From: Marinobacter sp. X15-166B
GTDB taxonomy: Bacteria > Pseudomonadota > Gammaproteobacteria > Pseudomonadales > Oleiphilaceae
Assembly (NCBI RefSeq): GCF_001752365.1
Contig: NZ_MEIY01000001.1
Location: forward strand, 2,986,820 to 3,050,819
Direction of reading: 5' to 3'
Length of the DNA stretch: 64,000 nt
This document shows, piece after piece, positions 1,096 to 25,253 of this stretch. A program made the position numbers and the translations under genes. Below the pieces are notes generated by a model, which made no database searches, was not told where the DNA came from, and saw only the letters and a program-made list of their open reading frames with translations. Numbering within the stretch: the stretch's first letter is position 1; each line of letters starts with the position of its first letter.

Positions 1096-1434
1096 TCAGA
1101 CGGTGATGCGGGTAGCGTCAGCGGTGTCGCGCAGTTGCAACAGCTCATGAATCGAGAAAACAGAGGTACGACCGGTGGTGTCGTGAATGACCACGGTGTT
1201 GCCTGTAGTCAGGCTGACATCCACGTAAGCGGAACGCTGGCCAACAGCCTCAAGGTCAGCCCACGCACGGGTAACGATCAGCGCGGCACGGCGACGGCTG
1301 CAGTGAAACTCTTCCATAATGCTGTCAATGGTCATGCTGATGGCGGATTTGCGCCCAAAGTCGCGTTTGCGAAGAGCGATCAGCTGGCCGTATGCGGCGT
1401 TGAATGCTTTGTTGTCGGATGCGTTAGCGTTCAT
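1096..1434 (-). CDS. Hypothetical phage early protein, 112 aa
   Basis: A 112-residue soluble protein that I do not recognise. The N-terminal half is rich in Lys and Arg, with a helical stretch around EEFHCSRRRAALIVTRAW that could be a helix-turn-helix. The C-terminal half looks like alternating beta strands ending in a leucine-rich helix. Its start codon overlaps the stop of the Ogr-like gene by four bases (ATGA), so the two are probably translationally coupled. The primase gene starts 12 bases downstream. DNA binding is only a guess from composition and context. Confidence 0.65.
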   Translation of the reverse strand: MNANASDNKAFNAAYGQLIALRKRDFGRKSAISMTIDSIMEEFHCSRRRAALIVTRAWADLEAVGQRSAYVDVSLTTGNTVVIHDTTGRTSVFSIHELLQLRDTADATRITV

Positions 1435-1988
1435 TTTGTAATTCCTTTTTTTGGTTGGTATTTCTCGTAAGCCAGGTCAATTTCGAGCTGGCACTGCTCC
1501 CGCACATCGGGCGAAAGCGGTATCTCTCGCAGATTGCCTTCCAGGTCGAGCGAGAGGCGGTCGGTGTGGGTGATGAACACCACCCCCCGGTACCCGCAGT
1601 AATCGCCGCTCTGGCAGAACACGTACAGCTGGCGCTGCGCCGGGATCATCTGCACGCTGGTGCGCACCCGGCACACGCCGGTGCAGTGAGGGCACAGGAT
1701 GCGCAGAAAGCTGTTGCGCACGCCGGGCTGCAGCTTTGCCTGGCCGTCGACCTGGGCCCGGGGGATCTTGGCCCGGTGCACGGGCCCGTAAGAGACCTGC
1801 ACGCCGCCCCGGTAGCCGCACTCCAGGTTGCGGCACTGCACCAGGCCGTCCCATCCGCGCTCCTGTATTGAGCGGCTGGACTGAATGGAGCAAGCCTCCC
1901 CGCACGCCGGGCAGTTCAGATGCAGGAAGTTGCGCGTGATCCGGCTCATGGGCACCTTGCTACTTGCTTTCTCGCTTTTGTTTGACAT
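1431..1988 (-). CDS. Tandem Ogr/Delta-type zinc-finger late activator
   Basis: Ogr (P2) and Delta (P4) are small zinc-finger proteins that switch on phage late promoters by contacting the RNA polymerase alpha subunit. This 185-residue protein has two such fingers. The first is C26-X2-C29-X22-C52-X4-C57, exactly the Ogr pattern. The second is C99-X2-C102-X22-C125-X5-C131. Both end in the same CGYRG motif, so the protein is an internal duplication, as in P4 Delta, rather than a single finger as in P2 Ogr. It is the obvious candidate to act at the three TTGT-N13-ACAA dyads at the late-operon starts. Family call from the cysteine spacing is firm; its promoters are inferred. Confidence 0.85.
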   Translation of the reverse strand: MSNKSEKASSKVPMSRITRNFLHLNCPACGEACSIQSSRSIQERGWDGLVQCRNLECGYRGGVQVSYGPVHRAKIPRAQVDGQAKLQPGVRNSFLRILCPHCTGVCRVRTSVQMIPAQRQLYVFCQSGDYCGYRGVVFITHTDRLSLDLEGNLREIPLSPDVREQCQLEIDLAYEKYQPKKGITK

Positions 1989-5647: not shown

Positions 5648-7891
5648 TTAATCCCTGTCGTATAGTGCGCTGCGGGCACGGGTGGCATTGCGGCGGTCGC
5701 GATCCTGCAGGATCCGTTCTACCTGCGCGGCAATCTCTTGCGCGTCTTGCCCTGGTGCGCCGTAGACGTTGATGGTGACGCTGTCGCCGGCGGCTGCGCT
5801 GGCCGACGCGGTGGGCGACCCTATGGGCGCACGGCTGTCGAACTGAATGCCGTCGGCCGCTGCGGGCAGGGCAGCTGCACCGATGGCAATGCCCGCACCG
5901 GCCTGGCGCACGCGCTTGCCGAAACCGGTTACCTGTTTGAGGGTGTCGGGCTCTTGCTGCTCCAGCCCCTTGCGGTAGCCTTCCAGGGTGTCGTGCCCGG
6001 CGCCCATGAACACCCGCGACGGGGATTTAATGCCCAGGGTTTCTTTGAACCAGCCGATGGCTTTGGCGCCCGCACCGGTGATGGTGTCTTTCACTTTATT
6101 CAGGCCGCCCAAAATGCCGTTGACCAGGCCGTCAAGAATCTGCTTGCCAAACCCGGTAAAGGATTCGGGCAGATCGACGCCAAACCAGCCCATGACGCCG
6201 CTGAAGGCTTTGTAGAATAAACCCAGCGGTGACCAGTTCAGGATGAGTTTACCGATACCGCCAATGCCGGCGCTGAACGCTGCTGTTACCTGGCCCCATA
6301 GCCCGCTGAAGAATCCCGCTATGCCGTCCCAGTTTTTGTAGATCAGGTAGCCGGCGCCTGCGATCGCGGAAATCAGCAGTCCGATGGGGTTGGCAGTGAT
6401 GGCCAGGCCAACGGCCTTGATGCCTGCGGCTATCATCGGCAAGCCGCCGGCCAACCCAATGATGGCGGTGGTTGCGGTGAAGATGGCTTTGCCGAAGGCG
6501 AGAATGGCGAAGATGGGCTTCATCGCAAAGATGAACGCGAGAATCATGCCCAGGTTATCGAACCCACCGACCAGGCCGGCCACGCGGCTGGTCATCATGG
6601 CGAGGTTCTTGGCGGTTGACGCAACGCCGGTACCGATATCGCGGATGATCGGCAGGGCATTTTTCAGCCGGTCGCCGAACTCGCGGGCGAACTGCTTGAC
6701 CTGGTCGCGGTTCTCACCCATCCAGGATGAAAGGTCGCCCATCAGTTCGGTGACCGCGGGCATGAGCTCTGCGCCAATGGTGTTCTTCATGCCGGCCATG
6801 CTCAATTGCGTATCCAGCAGGGCGTCTTTAAAGGTTTCAGCGTCGCGCGCAGTTTTCTCGCTGAGCACATAGCCGGTGCGCTGAGCATCGGCGCGCAGTT
6901 GTTGCAGGCCCGCACTGCCGTCTTTCAGCAAATTGAGCATGGCCGCGCCGCCCTGGGTGCCAAACAGCTGGCTGGCAATGTCCACCTTCTGGTTGTGGTT
7001 GGTGACGCTGCTCAGGCGGTCAGCCACGACAGCCAGGGCCTCATCCGACTGCATGTTTGCCAGATCTTCAGCCGAAAGCCCCAATGCTTCGTACGCCTGC
7101 TGGGCGGCGCCCGCACCGCGAACGGCTTCTCCGGTGCGCTTTACGAACCGCTGCATGTTGCCGTCCATCGCGTTTTGGCTGATGCCGGAGCGTTCGCCGG
7201 CGTAGGACAGCTCTTGGTAGGCCGCTGTGGTTAGTTTCAGCTTGTCCGCAGTCTTTGCAGCGTGGTCACCCAGCCCTGCCGTTGAGTTGGCAATGCCAAA
7301 GATGCCCGCGGCCACGCCGGTGGTGGCGACCAGGGCGCGCTTGCCAAATCGGGTCACTTCGCTGGTCATGTTGTTGAACTTGCCGCCTACGTCGGCCTTG
7401 CCCAGCCGGTCCAGGTACTGGCGCTGGCGCTGGATGCGCTCGTTGGCGACCTTCATCTGATCGGCCAGCTTGCGCTCGGCGTCGGCCAGGTTGTGGGTAC
7501 TCACGCCGGCCTCTTGCAGGCGCTTGCGCACCGCGCCCAATTCTTTGCGTTGCTTCTGGCCCCGGCTGGTGAATTGCTCCACCTCTTTGCGGGCCCGGTT
7601 GTATTCGTTACGGAGCTTGGCGGTGGGCTTGGCGGTGGATGTCAGCTCTTTGCCCAGCTGGCGCACCCGCTCCTGCGATGCGGAGAGGGCAGCGGAGTTG
7701 TCTTTCAGGGCCTTGTCGGCCTTGCGGTACGATGAAATATCGCGCTGGGTGGATTGCAGTTTGCGGGTTTCCGCCTGGGCCTGTTTGAGCGCCTGGGCGG
7801 TACCGCTGGATGTGGCGTTGATTTTCTTCAGTGGCCCGGTGATCTTGTCACGTGCGGCCAGTATTACCTGAAGATCCAGACTCTTTGACAT
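5648..7891 (-). CDS. T: Tail tape-measure protein T
   Basis: A 747-residue tape-measure protein that sets tail length and fills the tube lumen. I use the ATG at 7891 (MSKSLDLQVILAARDKI), which overlaps the E' stop as TAATG, rather than the longer open frame. Residues 1-190 are a long coiled-coil rich in Lys, Gln and Arg. About residues 430-560 contain several hydrophobic helices. The C-terminal part has the ETLGIKSPSRVFMGAGHDTLEGYRKG motif found in P2-like gpT. It follows E/E' and precedes U. Confidence 0.93.
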   Translation of the reverse strand: MSKSLDLQVILAARDKITGPLKKINATSSGTAQALKQAQAETRKLQSTQRDISSYRKADKALKDNSAALSASQERVRQLGKELTSTAKPTAKLRNEYNRARKEVEQFTSRGQKQRKELGAVRKRLQEAGVSTHNLADAERKLADQMKVANERIQRQRQYLDRLGKADVGGKFNNMTSEVTRFGKRALVATTGVAAGIFGIANSTAGLGDHAAKTADKLKLTTAAYQELSYAGERSGISQNAMDGNMQRFVKRTGEAVRGAGAAQQAYEALGLSAEDLANMQSDEALAVVADRLSSVTNHNQKVDIASQLFGTQGGAAMLNLLKDGSAGLQQLRADAQRTGYVLSEKTARDAETFKDALLDTQLSMAGMKNTIGAELMPAVTELMGDLSSWMGENRDQVKQFAREFGDRLKNALPIIRDIGTGVASTAKNLAMMTSRVAGLVGGFDNLGMILAFIFAMKPIFAILAFGKAIFTATTAIIGLAGGLPMIAAGIKAVGLAITANPIGLLISAIAGAGYLIYKNWDGIAGFFSGLWGQVTAAFSAGIGGIGKLILNWSPLGLFYKAFSGVMGWFGVDLPESFTGFGKQILDGLVNGILGGLNKVKDTITGAGAKAIGWFKETLGIKSPSRVFMGAGHDTLEGYRKGLEQQEPDTLKQVTGFGKRVRQAGAGIAIGAAALPAAADGIQFDSRAPIGSPTASASAAAGDSVTINVYGAPGQDAQEIAAQVERILQDRDRRNATRARSALYDRD

Positions 7892-8055
7892 TATTCCTCC
7901 GGCTGGCTGCGCTTGCGGGCGTGTTCCCGCCACTCCATCAATTCAGTTACGGTCATGTCGGCCATGTCTGCGGGCCGCCAGTGAAATATGGCGGCCACAT
8001 CAGCCATGGCGTCATCAACGCGCCGGGGGATTACCCCTTGTACTGCTTCTGCAAC
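7891..8055 (-). CDS. E': E' extension of tail protein E, made by -1 frameshift
   Basis: This is the part of the E+E' product read in the -1 frame after the slip at 8055-8061. It contains the GpE signature (MADVAAIFHWRPADMADMTVTELMEWR). Continuing from residue 87 of E gives a 141-residue fusion, against 142 in P2. It has no convincing ribosome-binding site of its own upstream. The stop overlaps the T start. E and E+E' are tail assembly chaperones that coat the tape measure. Confidence 0.85.
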   Translation of the reverse strand, partial: VAEAVQGVIPRRVDDAMADVAAIFHWRPADMADMTVTELMEWREHARKRSQPEE

Positions 8056-8315
8056 AAAAAACCGGCAATCTCCTTGCCACACTCCACCAGGTCGGCGGGG
8101 TCCATGTTGCGCACTTCGTGCTCGCTGATGCTGGGGTTGCTGATGCGGGGGATCAGCTTGGTGATGCTGTCTGCGTCCAGGTTCATCACTTCGGCCAGAC
8201 TCAGGCCGCGCAGCTCGCCGGACAGCGGCTTGCGCAGTGCGATCTTGTCGACTTTCTCGCCCTCGCGGGCGATTGGGGTGTCCAGTGTTACGGTTACGGT
8301 TACCGGCTTGCTCAT
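8031..8315 (-). CDS. E: Tail assembly chaperone E
   Basis: A 94-residue protein of the P2 gpE family (VTVTLDTPIAREGEKVDKIALRKP, then LRGLSLAEVMNLDADSITKLIPRIS). Tail chaperones of long-tailed phages are made in a short form and a frameshifted long form. This is the short form, ending at TAA 8031-8033. The heptamer T-TTT-TTG at codons 85-87 lies in the right phase for a -1 slip into E'. Confidence 0.9.
   Translation of the reverse strand: MSKPVTVTVTLDTPIAREGEKVDKIALRKPLSGELRGLSLAEVMNLDADSITKLIPRISNPSISEHEVRNMDPADLVECGKEIAGFLLQKQYKG
8055..8061 (-). promoter_or_regulatory. Programmed -1 ribosomal frameshift heptamer
   Basis: On the minus strand the sequence is T TTT TTG, in phase with the E reading frame (GGT TTT TTG). 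It is the same heptamer as in P2 E/E'. A slip here continues through E' without a stop to 7891. Confidence 0.85.
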
Positions 8316-8849: not shown

Positions 8850-10364
8850 CTATGCGTTGACACTTCTGGCGAAGTCGACCAGGTATTGGTCAGTGATGCG
8901 CTGACGCAGCATCAGGCTTTCCAGCGGTGGCACGGGCGTGTAGTCGTAATCGATGTACAGCTTGCCGGCCTTGAGGGTGTCTTTGGTGTTGATGTTTTCA
9001 TCGAACCAGGCCGTCGCGTCAATGATCAGGCCGAGGTTCTTCATCTCGCGGAACTTGGCGTTGATGCCTTCGATGATGTCTTTGGCCAGTGATGGGTGCA
9101 TGGGTTTGTCGACGGCCCACAGGTGCGCCTCGGCGATGGTGTCTGCCAGTATTTGCGCGGTGCGGGTGTAGTTCTCGAACTGGAACAGCGGGTCGGCACT
9201 GCAGGTGCGGGAGCCCCAAAAGCGGAAGCCTTCGCGCTGGATCAGCGTGGTGATGTCGTTGGCGTTGAGCAGCCCGGCGTCGGTGTTGGGGTCTTGCAGA
9301 TCCCAGTGCACGTCTTTATCAATGCCGGTAACGCCATTCACGGCCACGTTGGACAGGGTTTTGTGCCAGCCGACCTGTTGGTCGATCTTGGCGCGCATGC
9401 CCATGGCGCGTGCTACGGCGTGGGCCGTGTCGGCCGATGCGGTGTTGACGTTGAAGGAGACGAAGTCTGGCCAGATCAGCATCAGCTCACGGGCGCCAAA
9501 GCCGTTGCGGTACATGATGGCTTCTTCCAGGGTTTCACTGCCGTAGCAGCTGGCGTACGCAAAGGCGCGCAGCTTCTGGGCAATGCTGACCGTCTCAGCG
9601 GTGACGTTTTCGGTGTCCAGCCCTGGTACGCCGATAATGCGGGGCTTCACACCCAGATTCTGTTCAGCAGCCAGCAGCGCTTTCAGGCCGGTCTTTTTGC
9701 CCTGGGCGGTAACGGTGCCGATGACGTTGGCTTCGGTGGCTGGCTCGTCCACACCTTCGGCGACGCGCACCACCACTACCGGTGGGTTGGCCTGATCGGC
9801 AATGGCGTCAAGCGCGGCGGGCAGGGTTCCGGTGGTGCCTGCAGCGCCGATTGCATCCATCAGGTTGGTGACGAGCACGGGGGTATCTAGCGGGAAGGCT
9901 TCGTTTTCTCCGCCGGTCAAAGTCTGCCAGTCGGCTGCATTAACCAGGCCGGTGCCATCGTTGCCGGTGTCCAGCGCTACGGTGACAAGGGCGGCTGCTT
10001 CGGTCTTGGCTTCGACGGCGGTGATCACATCGCTTGCGGTGCTGGTGACCTCAGAGCTGACACCGGTGGCCAGGCTGACGGTGATGTCGTTGCCCGATAC
10101 GGAAACAGCCAGGGCCTCAGATACGGTACCGGGGTTTACATAACGTACGCGGATTTTGTTACCGGCAGTGCCGACGACTTTGGCGGTGAATACTACATCG
10201 CCGTTGCTGGCGATAGACCGCAGAGTTGCCTCAGCGGCTAAGCCGGCCGAGGCATCGGGAGCCGTGGCTACCAGCCCGATAACGGCGGTGGCAACGGTGC
10301 GGATGGTTCGGGTACCCTCGTTGATCTCGAGCACTCGAACGCCGTGGTGGTATTGGTCGGGCAT
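8850..10364 (-). CDS. FI: Tail sheath protein FI with an inserted domain
   Basis: The contractile sheath protein. Conserved parts include [20 protein letters not shown] at the start, [26 protein letters not shown] and the C-terminal [13 protein letters not shown]-type strand that links neighbouring subunits. It is 504 residues against 396 in P2. The extra length is an insertion at about residues 40-150, beta-rich, with [15 protein letters not shown] and a DWQTLTGG end. Comparable surface insertions occur in other phage sheaths. It heads the FI-FII-E-T-U-D operon, with a candidate activator dyad 78-95 bases upstream of its start. Confidence 0.92.
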
Positions 10365-10441
10365 GACGCCTCCTGGTCATCTGTATGGCAGTGGTTAACT
10401 GCCATGATGAACGCTGGGCGCAGGGGTGCCAGATTTTCAGT

Positions 10442-10462
10442 TTGTGGGGTGGCGCGAAACAA
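10442..10462 (-). promoter_or_regulatory. Late-promoter activator dyad upstream of FI
   Basis: TTGT-N13-ACAA on either strand, centred about 88 bases before the FI start codon. The same dyad occurs before V and between O and P. P2 Ogr sites are short TGT..ACA dyads centred near -55, which would place the FI start point near 10397. Confidence 0.7.
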
Positions 10463-10465
10463 ATA

Positions 10466-10483
10466 CGGGCGCGATAGAGCCCG
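10466..10483 (-). other. GC hairpin just downstream of the Mtd-like gene
   Basis: CGGGC and GCCCG pair around an 8-base loop, starting 13 bases after the stop of the lectin-type gene on the minus strand and followed by a T-rich run. It could be a weak terminator. In known diversity-generating systems a hairpin close after the variable region promotes homing, so it is recorded with that alternative. Confidence 0.45.
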
Positions 10484-10495
10484 GTCCGTAATAGA

Positions 10496-11515
10496 TCACA
10501 GAGAATCGCAGACGCCACGCAGGCCAACATACGCGCTCACATCCCACGGAACGCTGTTCAGGGCCACGCTGCGGGAGCCGGCCTCGCCGGCGTCGTACCA
10601 GCCGGCGCCGAATAATGCAGTGCGGAATTGGCCGCCGTACCACTGGCCGTGGTTGTTGGCGCCGTCCTTGCCGGTATTGAGATCATCTTTCCAGCCTACT
10701 CCGGTGTCTCGGTCGTAAAAAAGAGAGCTTTGCTGATAAAGGTTGCCGCTGGGCTGGTCCACGTTCAGGCAGCTGACGCACTCAAAGCCATAGCCCGCGT
10801 GGCCGCCCGTGCTTTGCCTTCCGCTGGCACCGGTAGTGCCCTGCGGCACGCCATAGGCGAACATCATAAACTCGCTGTAATCCGGAAGTCGCTTACCAGC
10901 ATTGCGAACCAAACGGCTGTAATCCAGTCGGGAATAGCCTTCTGTTCCGGTTAGCGGTGTGGCGTTATGCACTGATATGGGCACGGTATTTGGCCAGGGC
11001 GTGCTGTCTTCAGATGCCAAGTAGATATCTACCCACAGCTGCCCTGGGATCACTTCTACCATGCCGCTGGGGTCGCATTTTGGGCGGTGTTTCAGATCCC
11101 AGCAGCTGTTCGGAATGATCTGAGTCGGCAACGCGGCGGCGGCGTTGTAGGCGTCGGCCAACGGGCGCACTTTACCGAAATGGAAGCCCCCGATTTTGCG
11201 GCTGTTGTCGGCGGTGTAGCCGGTAGGGACGGTGCTGTTTTTGGATGCGATCCATTGCGCGATGCCGCTGGCATCCTGCACTGCGTAGATGTACACGTCG
11301 TCGCCCAGGGCCAGACTAGCAAAACTGCCATCGCTGTTGGTCACGGGGTCCCAGTTGCCGGTGTTTTCCAGCAGGTAGCCCTTGCTGTTGCCGCCGATGT
11401 TGACCATGCCTTCGGGCAGGTTCAGGGTGTCGCCGGTGCCTTTTTCAATGCGCCCGAAGATACTGACAAATCCGGCTGCCATCGCCGGAATGATGATGCG
11501 ATCGCCAGTGGCCAT
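10496..11515 (-). CDS. Mtd-like receptor-binding protein with C-type-lectin variable fold
   Basis: A 339-residue tail-tip protein that resembles Bordetella phage Mtd (major tropism determinant). Residues 100-200 hold NSCWDLKHRP and GQLWVDIYLAS, as in Mtd-type lectin domains. The C-terminus (FRTALFGAGW, then EAGSRS, then VGLRGVCDSL) follows the scaffold of diversity-generating-retroelement target proteins, with differences at the positions that vary in Mtd. It sits where P2 has the end of the tail-fibre genes. No reverse transcriptase or template repeat is seen in the window, so it may be an orphan target or a fixed receptor-binding protein. Fold and role are well supported; present-day diversification is not. 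Confidence 0.8.
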   Translation of the reverse strand: MATGDRIIIPAMAAGFVSIFGRIEKGTGDTLNLPEGMVNIGGNSKGYLLENTGNWDPVTNSDGSFASLALGDDVYIYAVQDASGIAQWIASKNSTVPTGYTADNSRKIGGFHFGKVRPLADAYNAAAALPTQIIPNSCWDLKHRPKCDPSGMVEVIPGQLWVDIYLASEDSTPWPNTVPISVHNATPLTGTEGYSRLDYSRLVRNAGKRLPDYSEFMMFAYGVPQGTTGASGRQSTGGHAGYGFECVSCLNVDQPSGNLYQQSSLFYDRDTGVGWKDDLNTGKDGANNHGQWYGGQFRTALFGAGWYDAGEAGSRSVALNSVPWDVSAYVGLRGVCDSL

Positions 11516-11850
11516 TATCGCGCTCCTTCAATGGTGTCGATGAGTTGCTGCACTTCGGCTTGGGTAAAGCCGAGCTGGTGGATACGTGCCGTGGGGTTAT
11601 CCTCGAGGACGAACTGCTCGCGCGCTCCGTCGTCGGTGGTCAGCACGCGGTATTGCGGCTCGTTGCCGGATGGTTGCTCGTTTTCAGCCAGTGTGCGGTC
11701 AAATACGTAACGGCTGGTGTTGTCGCGCAGGCCGCGCAGGAACGCCAGACCGCGCTGAACGTTTTCTTCCGTGGCCCACTTTGAGCCCATATAACCCGCC
11801 AGATATTCCACATCGGCGCGGGTTTTGATGATTTTGGGGTAGCCGTACAT
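11515..11850 (-). CDS. Hypothetical tail-fibre-region protein, 111 aa
   Basis: A 111-residue soluble protein between the tail fibre H and the Mtd-like protein, overlapping each by one base. It begins MYGYPKIIKTRADVEYL and contains GLAFLRGLRDNTSRYVFDR and a C-terminal FTQAEVQQLIDTIEGAR helix. I do not recognise the family. From position, where P2 has the fibre chaperone G, an assembly or adaptor role for the receptor-binding protein is possible. Confidence 0.6.
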   Translation of the reverse strand: MYGYPKIIKTRADVEYLAGYMGSKWATEENVQRGLAFLRGLRDNTSRYVFDRTLAENEQPSGNEPQYRVLTTDDGAREQFVLEDNPTARIHQLGFTQAEVQQLIDTIEGAR

Positions 11851-12560
11851 CAGATTTCCTCCAGGGCCGGAGAGCCGTTAACAATGACGAGTTTGTGAGA
11901 GGTGATCGGCAGGCGCGCATCCAGGGCCTGTTTGACCCCTTTCGGCGTAGCGGCTCGATCGGCCCGCTCGCCGGCCAGATGCTCGGTCTGGTCTGCAAAT
12001 TCGACCATGCCCTGGGCGGTAGTCGTCGCCGCTGGGTGTGCGCGGCCTTCTTCGTGATTCTGCAAAGATTGGGCAGCACTGTCGCCCACGGATTGCGCAA
12101 GATTATCGGCATAGCCCCGCGTGGCCAAAACCACTGTTGGGTCAACTTTTAAGGTGACGGCGGCGGTATCTGACACTTCCATCACAAAGCGGATGGTTTG
12201 AGTGCGGCTGGAGCCTTCTGTCAGCAGGGGTTTGTAGGTTTCGGGGTAATTGCCGTAGCCAATCAGGTCGCCATCGGCGTCAATCACGCCTATTTCACGG
12301 ATCGTCCAGCCGCCAACGTCCGGTGGCAGCACCTGTTCAACCACGATCCAGTTGGGGTTCTGGGCATCAACTTCGCTCCGGTTGATGGGCGCGCGCCGTA
12401 CTTCGTTGACCAGGGCGGTGCGGTCAGAGGTCGGCGCTGGCAGGGTGCCATTGCCATCACCTACGGCTAATTGGGCGATAATGACGGTTTGTCCCAGTGC
12501 AATTGCGTTTGCCAACTTGGCCTGGCCAATGTCGGTCAGTAGGGTGTAAAAACTTGCCAT
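11850..12560 (-). CDS. H: Short tail fibre protein H
   Basis: A 236-residue tail-fibre protein. Residues 1-150 are the conserved N-terminal attachment domain of P2 gpH-like fibres (FYTLLTDIGQAKLANAIALG, then VGDGNGTLPAP and GWTIREIGVIDADGDLI). The rest is a short repeat-type region (AQGMVEFADQTEHLAGERADRAATPKGV). P2 gpH is 669 residues, so the distal receptor-binding part is missing. That job has probably passed to the Mtd-like protein two genes downstream. Confidence 0.85.
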   Translation of the reverse strand: MASFYTLLTDIGQAKLANAIALGQTVIIAQLAVGDGNGTLPAPTSDRTALVNEVRRAPINRSEVDAQNPNWIVVEQVLPPDVGGWTIREIGVIDADGDLIGYGNYPETYKPLLTEGSSRTQTIRFVMEVSDTAAVTLKVDPTVVLATRGYADNLAQSVGDSAAQSLQNHEEGRAHPAATTTAQGMVEFADQTEHLAGERADRAATPKGVKQALDARLPITSHKLVIVNGSPALEEI

Positions 12561-12568
12561 GCATGCTC

Positions 12569-13195
12569 CTATTGCGGGTAGACGGTCGCTAAATCAGTGC
12601 TATCGGTTGCCATGCCAATAAAAAACGGTCCGGTGGCTGACATAATCCCAGGCTGGTAGGGCATCACATCGGTAACGTCGCCGTCATAACAGGCCATTCC
12701 GGCGTAAAACACCCCAGAGCTCTCGCCCACCAGGTCCAGTCCGGTGATGTGGCGGCTGACAGGTTTGGCGTCGTCGATCAGCCGCTCCAATTCCTGGTAC
12801 ATAGCGTCGGTGATGCCGATATCGAGAACGCCGATCTTGAGAGCGAAGGTACCCGGGGTGCCCATGGGCGTTGTTTGCCACCATTCGTTAACTTCCAACA
12901 GGTAACCAAGGGGCTCGACTACGCGGCGCAGGGCGCTGATTGTTCCTTTCTTCCTGTGCACGTAGAACGATGTCGCAATAACTTCGCGCTTGGCTTTGTC
13001 TGTCCACGCCGGGTCCCATCTATCTACACTGAACGCCCAGGCCAAATAGGGCAGCAGTAACGCCGGGCATGTGTAGGGGTTCCAAAGCGTTTGCAGGGAA
13101 ACAGGCACTCGCTGAATTTCCGCCAGGGCTTCTGCGGCAGCTCGCTCCAAGGGGGTGGTGTTATTGGGGAGCAGCGGCGCTCTATCGTTACTCAT
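12569..13195 (-). CDS. I: Baseplate protein I
   Basis: A 208-residue protein of the P2 gpI family, which forms the baseplate wedge and anchors fibres. Typical are LLPNNTTPLERAAAEAL near the start, LLPYLAWAFSVDRWD, and HRKKGTISALRRVVEPLG. It overlaps J by eight bases and precedes H, the conserved order. Confidence 0.92.
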   Translation of the reverse strand: MSNDRAPLLPNNTTPLERAAAEALAEIQRVPVSLQTLWNPYTCPALLLPYLAWAFSVDRWDPAWTDKAKREVIATSFYVHRKKGTISALRRVVEPLGYLLEVNEWWQTTPMGTPGTFALKIGVLDIGITDAMYQELERLIDDAKPVSRHITGLDLVGESSGVFYAGMACYDGDVTDVMPYQPGIMSATGPFFIGMATDSTDLATVYPQ

Positions 13196-14099
13196 CGCTG
13201 CCGCCGATAACGGCCGTGGCGGCGGTGCAATAGGCGGCCTCCGTTTCAGACAGAATCACGTCGGCTACCGGTTGCGCCAGCTCCACGCGCTGAACGCCTT
13301 CAACGTGCAACGCTGCATGGATCGCAGAGATACGAATGTCCCGGCCGATCCGGCGTTGCGTGCCGATGTATTGCTGCAGAGATGCCTGGGCGGCCTGAAG
13401 AATCGGTTCCTGAGCCGGGCCCGGGTAGACATACAGAGTTGCGTCTACCTGATAATTGACGATGGTTACTGATTGCACCGTGAGGCGGTCACCCACCGGC
13501 CGTGTATCTTCGCCGGAAAGCGCCGCCTCTACCTGGTCGATAATGTCTTGACTGGCTGTTCCATCGCCTTCACTGGATAGCAATGTGACGGTTACATGCG
13601 CGGGGGAAGGGCTGGTCGCTTTTGCGTCGGATACGCGACCGTCTGCTGACAGCGCTTGGTATTCATAGGCTCCGCGGGGGCCGGCAACGCTCAGTCCCTC
13701 CCAAGCCTGCTGGGCGCGCAAGCGCATATCGTCATCGGATTCGTAAGTAGGTGGTACCGGTGGCGTGGCATTCATGTCGCCCTGGTCAATCACAAGGCGC
13801 TCGACATCGAAGTTGGCCGCCAGGTTGTCCAGGTCTTCATCGCTGGAATAGGCCAGCATGACGGCCTTCGCGGCTTCGTTAACGCGCTGGCGCCATTGGA
13901 TCTCCCGGTAGGCGTTCTCCTGAAGGAGCTTGGTCAGCGGCTCGCTCTCAATCTGCAGCGTGGCCTCGACTTCTGGGCGCTCTTTGTCGCTGAGCAGCGC
14001 TAACAGCGCTTGTTTTCGCTCTTCCAGGATAGTTTCGAAATCGAGTGTTTCAACGAGTTTCGGGGCCGGTAGTTGGGCAAGATTGATAGTTCCAGTCAT
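13188..14099 (-). CDS. J: Baseplate wedge protein J
   Basis: A 303-residue protein of the P2 gpJ family. It shows the early LPAPKLVETLDFETILEERK, the NAAAKAVMLAYSSDEDLDNLAA-like segment and the domain with PPTYESDDDMRLRAQQAWEGLS and GPRGAYEYQALSADGRVSDA. It starts one base into the end of W. Length is the same as P2 J (302). Confidence 0.93.
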   Translation of the reverse strand: MTGTINLAQLPAPKLVETLDFETILEERKQALLALLSDKERPEVEATLQIESEPLTKLLQENAYREIQWRQRVNEAAKAVMLAYSSDEDLDNLAANFDVERLVIDQGDMNATPPVPPTYESDDDMRLRAQQAWEGLSVAGPRGAYEYQALSADGRVSDAKATSPSPAHVTVTLLSSEGDGTASQDIIDQVEAALSGEDTRPVGDRLTVQSVTIVNYQVDATLYVYPGPAQEPILQAAQASLQQYIGTQRRIGRDIRISAIHAALHVEGVQRVELAQPVADVILSETEAAYCTAATAVIGGSDE

Positions 14100-24461: not shown

Positions 24462-25253
24462 GTGCCTGCAGATCCTGCAGTCCGGCCAGGGCAGCGGAGC
24501 ACCACGGCGCGAAATCCCCCCCGCCTCCGGATCGTTTCTATAGGTCTGCCTTTATCAACACATGATTTAAACGCGGAAAACTGCCCGAAAGCTCGTAAGT
24601 CATTGATATTTGCTCGGGGCCGGTCTGTAGCTGCGGGGGGTGCTCGGAAAAGTGCAACAACTGCAACACGAGGAAAAAAGCCTCTGTAGGCCCCGCCATT
24701 GCTGGGTTTGCCTGTTACAGTCAAAGTGTAACGAGCAGTAACAGAAACGTCACATCGTTGATTTTAAAGGGATTTTATAAATGAATATGTTACTTTTAAA
24801 ACTGTAACAGCGTTACACATTAGTTACACATTACTTGCCGATACTAACGATTATAAGAGCATGATTTATATAGATTTATTATTTACTGTTACGCTTGTTA
24901 CACTTGTTACACTTTTCCGAGCCCCCCTCACATTCTGAGCCAGCCCCCTAACGCACCCGCACACACGCGTATATACACACGCAAATACAGTCACACTCAT
25001 ATCAACAGTAATGGCTGAGTTCACTCCACGTTAAAACCTCTGTGGTTGCCGTGGCTTTGCTGCGGTTATGGCAGGCATGCTGAGGCATTAGAGGGGATCT
25101 GGCAGGGCTTAGGGCGGGAATTAATGCCGACATCGCTATCGTATCTTATTGATAGTAAAGGGCTGGCGAGTGCGACTATGAGCGGTGACCCGCTGTGATT
25201 AAAATGGGTAAGTGTTTGATGTGCAAGGGTAATGATGCTGCGGTGAAGGCGTC
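24462..25253. other. Prophage right-end non-coding region with GTTACAC repeats
   Basis: About 800 bases between Q and the attachment remnant with no gene I would accept. The left part is GC-rich and holds the cos-like sequence. From about 24714 to 24912 it is AT-rich and carries about ten copies of TGTTAC/GTAACA-type hexamers. Five are exact GTTACAC/GTGTAAC heptamers (24726, 24812, 24823, 24897, 24906). The last two are part of a tandem CTTGTTACA repeat. The same heptamer is in the arms of the early operator at 2886-2910. Confidence 0.6.
24506..24530 (-). other. Candidate cos site
   Basis: On the minus strand this reads GGAGGCGGGGGG followed by an AT-rich step, resembling the conserved GGCGAGGCGGGG of the P2 cohesive end. 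It lies just beyond Q, where P2-like genomes keep cos. The match is partial and the strand relation is uncertain. Confidence 0.35.

Follow-up and report, generated by a model that had tools for sequence, protein, structure and literature searches.

Results

An intact mtd-like gene in the tail-fibre module of a P2-like prophage

The window, by which we mean the whole 64,000-nucleotide stretch of Marinobacter DNA that was analysed, carries a P2-like prophage with matches to PF05125, PF05929, PF05944, PF05926, PF06891, PF09684, PF06995 and PF04606. Pfam names genes for capsid, scaffold, terminases, portal, gpL, gpR, a gpS-type protein, gpV, gpW, gpJ, gpI, gpH, sheath, tube, gpU, gpD, a CI-type repressor and an Ogr/Delta-type late-gene activator (1431-1988, minus strand). 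An integrase-like gene to the left of the window matches PF22022 weakly (E 0.001, below the cut-off). Close to the right end of the prophage, as reckoned from the range of the IMG/VR contig, lies a 44-nt inverted repeat (24632-24675 and 24889-24932) that is 80% complementary.

The genes of interest follow the order of a tail-fibre module, and all of their frames are open. On the minus strand they are gpJ (Baseplate_J, 13188-14099), gpI (Tail_P2_I, 12569-13195), gpH (N-terminal domain of a tail-collar fibre protein, 11850-12560), a gene for a 111-aa protein (11515-11850), the mtd-like gene (10496-11515) and an FI-like tail sheath gene (8850-10364), with gpJ, gpI, gpH and the sheath assigned by Pfam. 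The 111-aa protein matches no Pfam or PHROG family. It precedes mtd in several phages, among them L013 (7663-7995) and the Mu-like phage YPCBV-1 (L018, 5630-5974), and is perhaps an adaptor or chaperone of Mtd.

The mtd-like gene begins with ATG and encodes an intact protein of 339 aa. An earlier note on this DNA, made from the sequence alone, had called the product an Mtd-like receptor-binding protein of the C-type-lectin kind, and the comparisons confirm this. Residues 31-140 match Pfam mtd_2nd (PF21916; E 1e-23, 84.2 bits against a cut-off of 24.6), the whole protein matches PHROG 11262, "tail protein" (1.1e-56), and phmmer aligns residues 64-339 with the Mtd structure 1yu3 (7.4e-25). The likeness to Mtd is not due to chance. 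An AlphaFold model built from a 29-row alignment (pLDDT 85, pTM 0.85) has Mtd as each of its five best Foldseek matches (1yu0, E 2.7e-20), and VIA-align superposes the model on five Mtd structures with Z 30.4 and an rmsd of 2.4 Å over 297 residues (model residues 9/10-339), so that the C-terminal domain has the C-type-lectin fold in the model. The structural alignment begins at residue 50 of the Mtd chain, and model residues 1-8 have a pLDDT below 50. Other structural matches include formylglycine-generating enzymes, EgtB-type enzymes and further DGR variable proteins. The C-terminus reads ALFGAGW...GSR...VGLRGVCDSL and contains the motifs (ALFG..W, GSR, VGLRGVCD) that had been taken as the scaffold of a DGR target. 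Homology, together with the place of the gene between the tail-fibre and sheath genes, points to a receptor binder at the phage tail.

No DGR components were found in the host genome

The earlier note had described the gene as an orphan, with neither a reverse transcriptase (RT) nor a template repeat (TR) in the window. A genome-wide search for both confirmed this and extended it to the whole genome (3.49 Mb in 4 contigs, 99.94% complete). The RVT_1 model, which recovers the RTs of L014, YPCBV-1, vir525 and BPP-1, has no match in the genome, and the bAvd model (PF22296), which recovers the Avd of L014 and of L051, has none at E<=1. When the last 151 bases of the gene were searched against the genome, the next best match covered 16 bases (E 0.46, chance level), and a pattern search within the window also found no template repeat. 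The genome contains no second Mtd.

Within the genus, 1 of 124 genomes has an mtd gene at E<=1e-5, and this is the genome of the window itself; within the order, 4 of 390 drawn genomes have Mtd at E<=1e-10, the same genome included. The search for a second strain of this prophage found none: L010, which shares 17 kb of identical sequence, probably represents the same isolate.

Close relatives carry a DGR cassette between mtd and the sheath gene

Some related loci in IMG/VR carry what is missing here. L011 and L012 share Mtd and the genes from gpJ to the 111-aa protein with the window at 77-82% identity, and L013 shares Mtd at 66% and the 111-aa protein at 54%. In L014 (IMG/VR contig 3300032392_000024), a 79% identical Mtd is followed by bAvd, then by a template repeat and an RVT_1 protein, and last by a sheath gene that is only 39% identical to the sheath in the window. 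The decisive relative is L051 (IMG/VR contig 3300033553_000263), found among the best 80 of 144 matches in a search with the sheath gene, because it matches the window on both flanks and holds the cassette between them. Upstream of the cassette, L051 is identical to the window at 67% in gpW, 71% in gpJ, 80% in gpI, 81% in gpH, 78% in the 111-aa protein and 79% in Mtd; downstream, at 78% in the sheath, 86% in FII and 83% in U. A small protein at 8031-8315 (63%) and a 761-aa protein at 5648-7933 (57%) are also shared, and 8 of the 11 genes compared, on both sides of the junction, are 71-86% identical. Between Mtd and the sheath, L051 has avd (bAvd), TR and RT (RVT_1) in about 1.68 kb, compared with 131 bp in the window (10365-10495, minus strand). 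RT and adenine-specific variation are both present in close relatives, and the lectin fold is matched, so neither of the outcomes that the earlier note named as refuting its reading was obtained.

The 131-bp spacer contains a TTTGT-N13-ACAAA box (10441-10463, minus strand), a candidate Ogr-activated late promoter element of the sheath operon. A TTGT-N12-14-ACA box about 71-80 nt before the sheath start occurs in 23 of 23 relatives with enough upstream sequence, the window itself being left out for length, and in 1.5% of shuffles. A terminator-like hairpin with a 5-bp stem, an 8-nt loop and a T-rich tail (10466-10483, minus strand) is a consensus match only. After the mtd stop codon, likeness to L014 and L051 stops at about 8 bases. 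The last part of the spacer aligns with the RT-sheath spacer of L051 (score 29, against a best of 15 in 2000 shuffles); once the 45 nt adjoining the sheath gene are removed, this match loses its significance (p=0.19). The cassette-less phages L045 and L041 match the spacer at least as well as L051 does (45 for L045, 39.5 for L051). Derivation of the post-stop sequence from the post-TR region of L014 was considered and rejected (the best alignment scored 11, whereas 200 shuffles reached up to 15).

The variable region differs from a relative's template at adenines

The variable region (VR) was compared with the template of another phage, L014. The VR core starts at codon 303 (10509-10609, minus strand), and 13 of its 17 mismatches to the L014 template repeat fall on template adenines. 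It thus differs at 13 of 23 adenines and at 4 of 78 other positions (Fisher p=2.1e-7), and by none of the 17 differences has the VR gained an A. As a control, the remainder of the gene (609 nt) differs at 42 of 157 adenines vs 101 of 452 other positions (p=0.16). With the template of L051 a weaker excess is seen (13 of 22 A, 17 of 79 non-A, p=0.0011), and the same test on the VR of L012 is not significant (p=0.12 and 0.095). In VR-to-VR controls there is some excess at A between the window and L014 (p=0.0033), with p=0.15 for L051. The mismatches between the own VR and TR of these two phages in the 101-nt core are all at template adenines (11 of 11 in L014, 12 of 12 in L051).

At the ten AAY codons of the L014 template the third base is kept in all ten and the residue is changed in nine. 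Nine of these ten codons line up with AAC in the template of BPP-1, always offset by 39 residues and in an ungapped stretch, which bears out the claim that the protein differs at the positions variable in phage Mtd. By codon position, mismatches number 10, 5 and 2 in the VR and 29, 21 and 93 in the body (p=2.9e-5).

Silent sites and selection

Third codon positions of the window and L011 differ in 2 of 35 codons in the VR and in 126 of 302 in the body. The resulting VR/body silent ratio of 0.14 is the lowest of 45 pairs in the family, the next being 0.34; ratios below 1 are general (42 of the 45 pairs), so the low value is a matter of degree. Along the gene, third-position differences per 20-codon step drop from 10 to none at codon 301, close to where the template match has its 5' end. 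L011 Mtd equals L014 Mtd over the shared part of the tree columns (zero branch lengths). We read the low silent divergence as the probable trace of the last template that wrote the VR, which would have been L014-like; writing of the VR in trans is another possible reading.

The body has a dN/dS near 0.09 against L011 and L166, a rough value because dS is above 1. In the VR, dN is 0.22 and dS 0.09 against L011. From these two comparisons, the Mtd-like protein has probably stayed in use, and the VR shows an excess of replacements.

A CTG-heptad array follows the VR in relatives and is broken in the window

In BPP-1, efficient homing depends on a GC-rich hairpin after the VR, as shown by Guo et al. 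(2011; PMC3240598), who also report that hairpins of phage DGRs have 4-nt GRNA loops. We found GRNA-loop hairpins (stem of at least 5) in BPP-1 and in 12 of the 13 YPCBV-1-type Mtd loci tested, in none of 13 L014/L051-type loci and, at the same stem length, none in the window. As L014 and L051 have cassettes and also lack the hairpin, it does not define all DGRs.

Many L014/L051-type loci have the pattern CTG-N4-CTG-N4-CTG-N5-CTG, often followed by T's, after the VR. This CTG-heptad array passes the set criterion after 17 of 68 non-redundant VRs and after none of the 68 TRs, against a background of 0.3% in random windows and 0.06% in shuffles. The pattern was first seen in 29 loci; among 55 representatives outside that discovery list, 7 pass, compared with 57 of 21805 stop-triplet-anchored windows (0.26%). 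Of the 68 VR/TR pairs, 51 lack the array, 36 have neither the array nor a hairpin with a stem of at least 6, and two have both. We considered whether array and GRNA hairpin are mutually exclusive, and the two loci with both leave exclusivity unsupported (Fisher p=0.13). Arrays are also found in L172, L184, L210, L213, L263, L265, L266, L272, L274, L283, L126, L147, L152 and L085.

The array scores 12/12 in L014 (718-746), in L051 (4209-4237) and in L215, a locus with an RT fragment. At the corresponding place in the window (10473-10501, minus strand), where the likeness to relatives ends, 7 of the 12 pattern bases are present, which is the background level. Alongside the known hairpin, the array may represent another class of DGR target-site element. 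Its position at the VR suggests a role in target recognition; alternatively, it may act in avd translation.

Cassette state varies across the Mtd family

A scan of genome contigs with the single protein gave no relative. Profile searches were taken to the best 80 of 328 loci (viral) and, with profile A2, the best 80 of 100 (genome contigs). We examined 86 Mtd loci, comprising the profile matches, earlier loci and three genome loci, with three repeated contigs dropped and close relatives kept. Of these, 51 are complete at the 3' end and are followed by 1.7 kb or more of sequence; an RT match is present in 41 (in L218 a fragment only) and absent from 10, the window's own contig L010 included. 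A template repeat was found in 49 Mtd loci, and 510 of 553 VR/TR mismatches lie on adenines, in an A-tolerant scan that itself favours pairs with adenine mismatches and from which L177 (repeat 1.2 kb upstream) was left out. The contig of L177 has no RVT_1 match and carries a second VR-like copy 1.2 kb upstream of the end of Mtd (about 5845-5949; A-tolerant matches at 99 of 105 positions), which may mark a tandem pair of Mtd genes. The T7 records LR745708 and LR745707 were dropped as Mtd matches; the former is an engineered T7 phage with a T7/BPP-1 Mtd chimaeric fibre by its record note.

Two loci carry remnants of RT. In L215 an RT fragment (RVT_1 positions 119-205 only) begins at 6927, 19 bases after the last Mtd codon; in L218/L262 (Halanaerobium salsuginis) a tblastn fragment begins at 6987, 80 bases after it. 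Judged by sequence, both look like intermediate deletions.

A tree built from 42 Mtd bodies, with the VR left out, places the window in a supported set of six rows, of which three are DGR-bearing, two are unlabelled and none other is cassette-less. Across the tree the label (DGR, or none or fragment) changes six times. As the root was not inferred, these changes do not separate gain from loss; the presence of the cassette in the deeper nodes is the simpler reading. A supported clade of Mtd genes with no RT, Avd or TR nearby consists of L198, L199, L200, L204, L207, L211 (unlabelled, short flank) and L257-L259 from Thalassospira; L257 and L259 share post-stop sequence with L198 and L207, and of the three Thalassospira genomes two lack an RVT_1 match, the third having a weak one. 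Mtd loci with no RT nearby may have one elsewhere in the genome: some RVT_1 match, its type (DGR or other) not assigned, is present in 4 of 9 genomes of RT-less loci, a tenth genome, L249, being a cassette-bearing control. In genome G252 of L162 the match is about 110 kb from its Mtd.

Discussion

We propose that the mtd-like gene encodes the receptor-binding protein of a P2-like prophage and was once a DGR target. By the fingerprint at template adenines, a cDNA of a template repeat, mutated at its adenines, would have replaced the last ~100 bases of the gene and altered residues of the C-type lectin. The avd gene, template repeat and RT, which lie between mtd and sheath in relatives, would then have been lost in this lineage; by comparison with them, the missing stretch would start about 8 bases past the stop codon and end at or before the sheath promoter. 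The protein, still intact, would now change by ordinary mutation only and so be frozen in the last version that the DGR wrote; because the DGR machinery is gone, the receptor binder seems locked in that version. We put the probability of this reading, a DGR target that lost its cassette in this lineage and is now fixed, at roughly 0.58. That the VR was written by a DGR, and that no DGR now acts from this genome, is very probable whatever the route, and we favour loss in this lineage over partial acquisition. The earlier note had left three options: diversification in trans, a relic, or a fixed receptor binder on a diversifiable fold. The second and third fit best when taken together, and the first finds no supporting element in the host genome, with co-infection as the route still available to it.

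There are other possibilities for how a DGR-written VR came to stand without a DGR. The module from gpJ to mtd may have entered a DGR-free P2-like phage by recombination at the 3' end of mtd; the VR would then have been written in the donor, no cassette would ever have stood in cis, and the state reached is the same. The junction of tail fibre and sheath resembles a swap point, several phages that share a similar sheath gene (L041-L045, L047 and L049) show no DGR RT match upstream of it, and the best match to the spacer is the cassette-less L045, which outscores L051. Against this stands L051, with the cassette between flanks that both match the window, and we consider partial acquisition rather unlikely. 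Continued diversification of the VR in trans, with Avd, RT and template RNA supplied by a co-infecting or superinfecting L014-like relative, has a precedent in BPP-1, where homing takes place when a separate donor plasmid supplies avd, brt and TR (PMC3240598). The silent sites of the VR fit an L014-like template far better than those of the surrounding gene do, as if a foreign template had written last, and at its 3' end the VR has kept its match to the template. Yet the genome has no RT, Avd or TR of its own, and the post-VR array is broken in the window, so that, should the array be required, the site would be inactive in cis too; ongoing diversification in trans therefore seems improbable to us.

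Receptor-binding tips often evolve fast, and no RT lies at the locus, so an ordinary Mtd-like lectin that was never a DGR target, with codon differences left by normal host-driven selection, has also to be weighed. The mismatches are adenine-specific with conserved third bases, the template codons fall on the variable positions of BPP-1, and DGR-bearing relatives surround the window in the tree. We regard this last explanation as scarcely credible. A broader proposal joins the two parts of the analysis: phage DGRs would have a second target element, the CTG array, and the cassette of the window would have been lost by a break inside it, locking the binder in cis and in trans. We advance this only tentatively, as somewhat more doubtful than the loss itself.

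The protein is a known kind in a little-described state, a DGR-written Mtd without a cassette. The BPP-1 system (mtd-bbp7-TR-brt) has a homologous protein of matching predicted fold with a C-terminal VR and nine of ten AAY codons at the same sites. The window protein differs in being only 32% identical, with a shorter N-terminal part, and in belonging to a P2-like prophage, and its locus differs in lacking avd, TR, RT and a GRNA-loop hairpin after the VR. L051 and L014 are closer (Mtd 79% identical in both, with the same neighbours on both sides in L051) and differ in having a complete avd-TR-RT. Chromohalobacter phage YPCBV-1 (OP380511), Mu-like according to its authors (PMC9769972), has a 49% identical Mtd preceded by a homologue of the 111-aa protein, but also Avd, RT, TR and the GRNA-loop hairpin. 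Marinomonas phage P12026 and Synechococcus phages S-CBS1 and S-CBS3 resemble the window in having an Mtd-like gene and no RVT_1 match in the record, at 26-29% identity to the window protein. In Pseudogulbenkiania sp. NH8B, DiGReF (PMC3521204) describes distal target ORFs beside a strongly mutated RT. These targets have likewise lost their local RT, but there another DGR RT remains and is thought to serve them, whereas none was found in the genome of the window. DiGReF also reports paralogues without a VR, DGR activity is treated by Roux et al. (2021; PMC8144416), and a P2-like Burkholderia phage has an RT that, according to its authors, is unlikely to function as Brt does (PMC3091744). In the open-licence literature searched, we met no cassette-less Mtd described as here. 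DGR searches such as DiGReF start from the RT, and targets that outlive it are therefore likely to be missed.

An orphan DGR target can be recognised through its cassette-bearing relatives. Across the Mtd family the presence of the cassette changes repeatedly, with six label changes on the tree and two loci with RT fragments, so that the point at which a phage gives up diversifying its receptor binder can be studied by comparison. The array, if functional, would help to explain how DGRs without a hairpin find their targets, and would aid DGR detection and engineering. If the broader proposal is correct, frozen Mtd proteins would be evolutionary end points that DGR phages reach repeatedly, with silent sites that preserve a record of the lost template.
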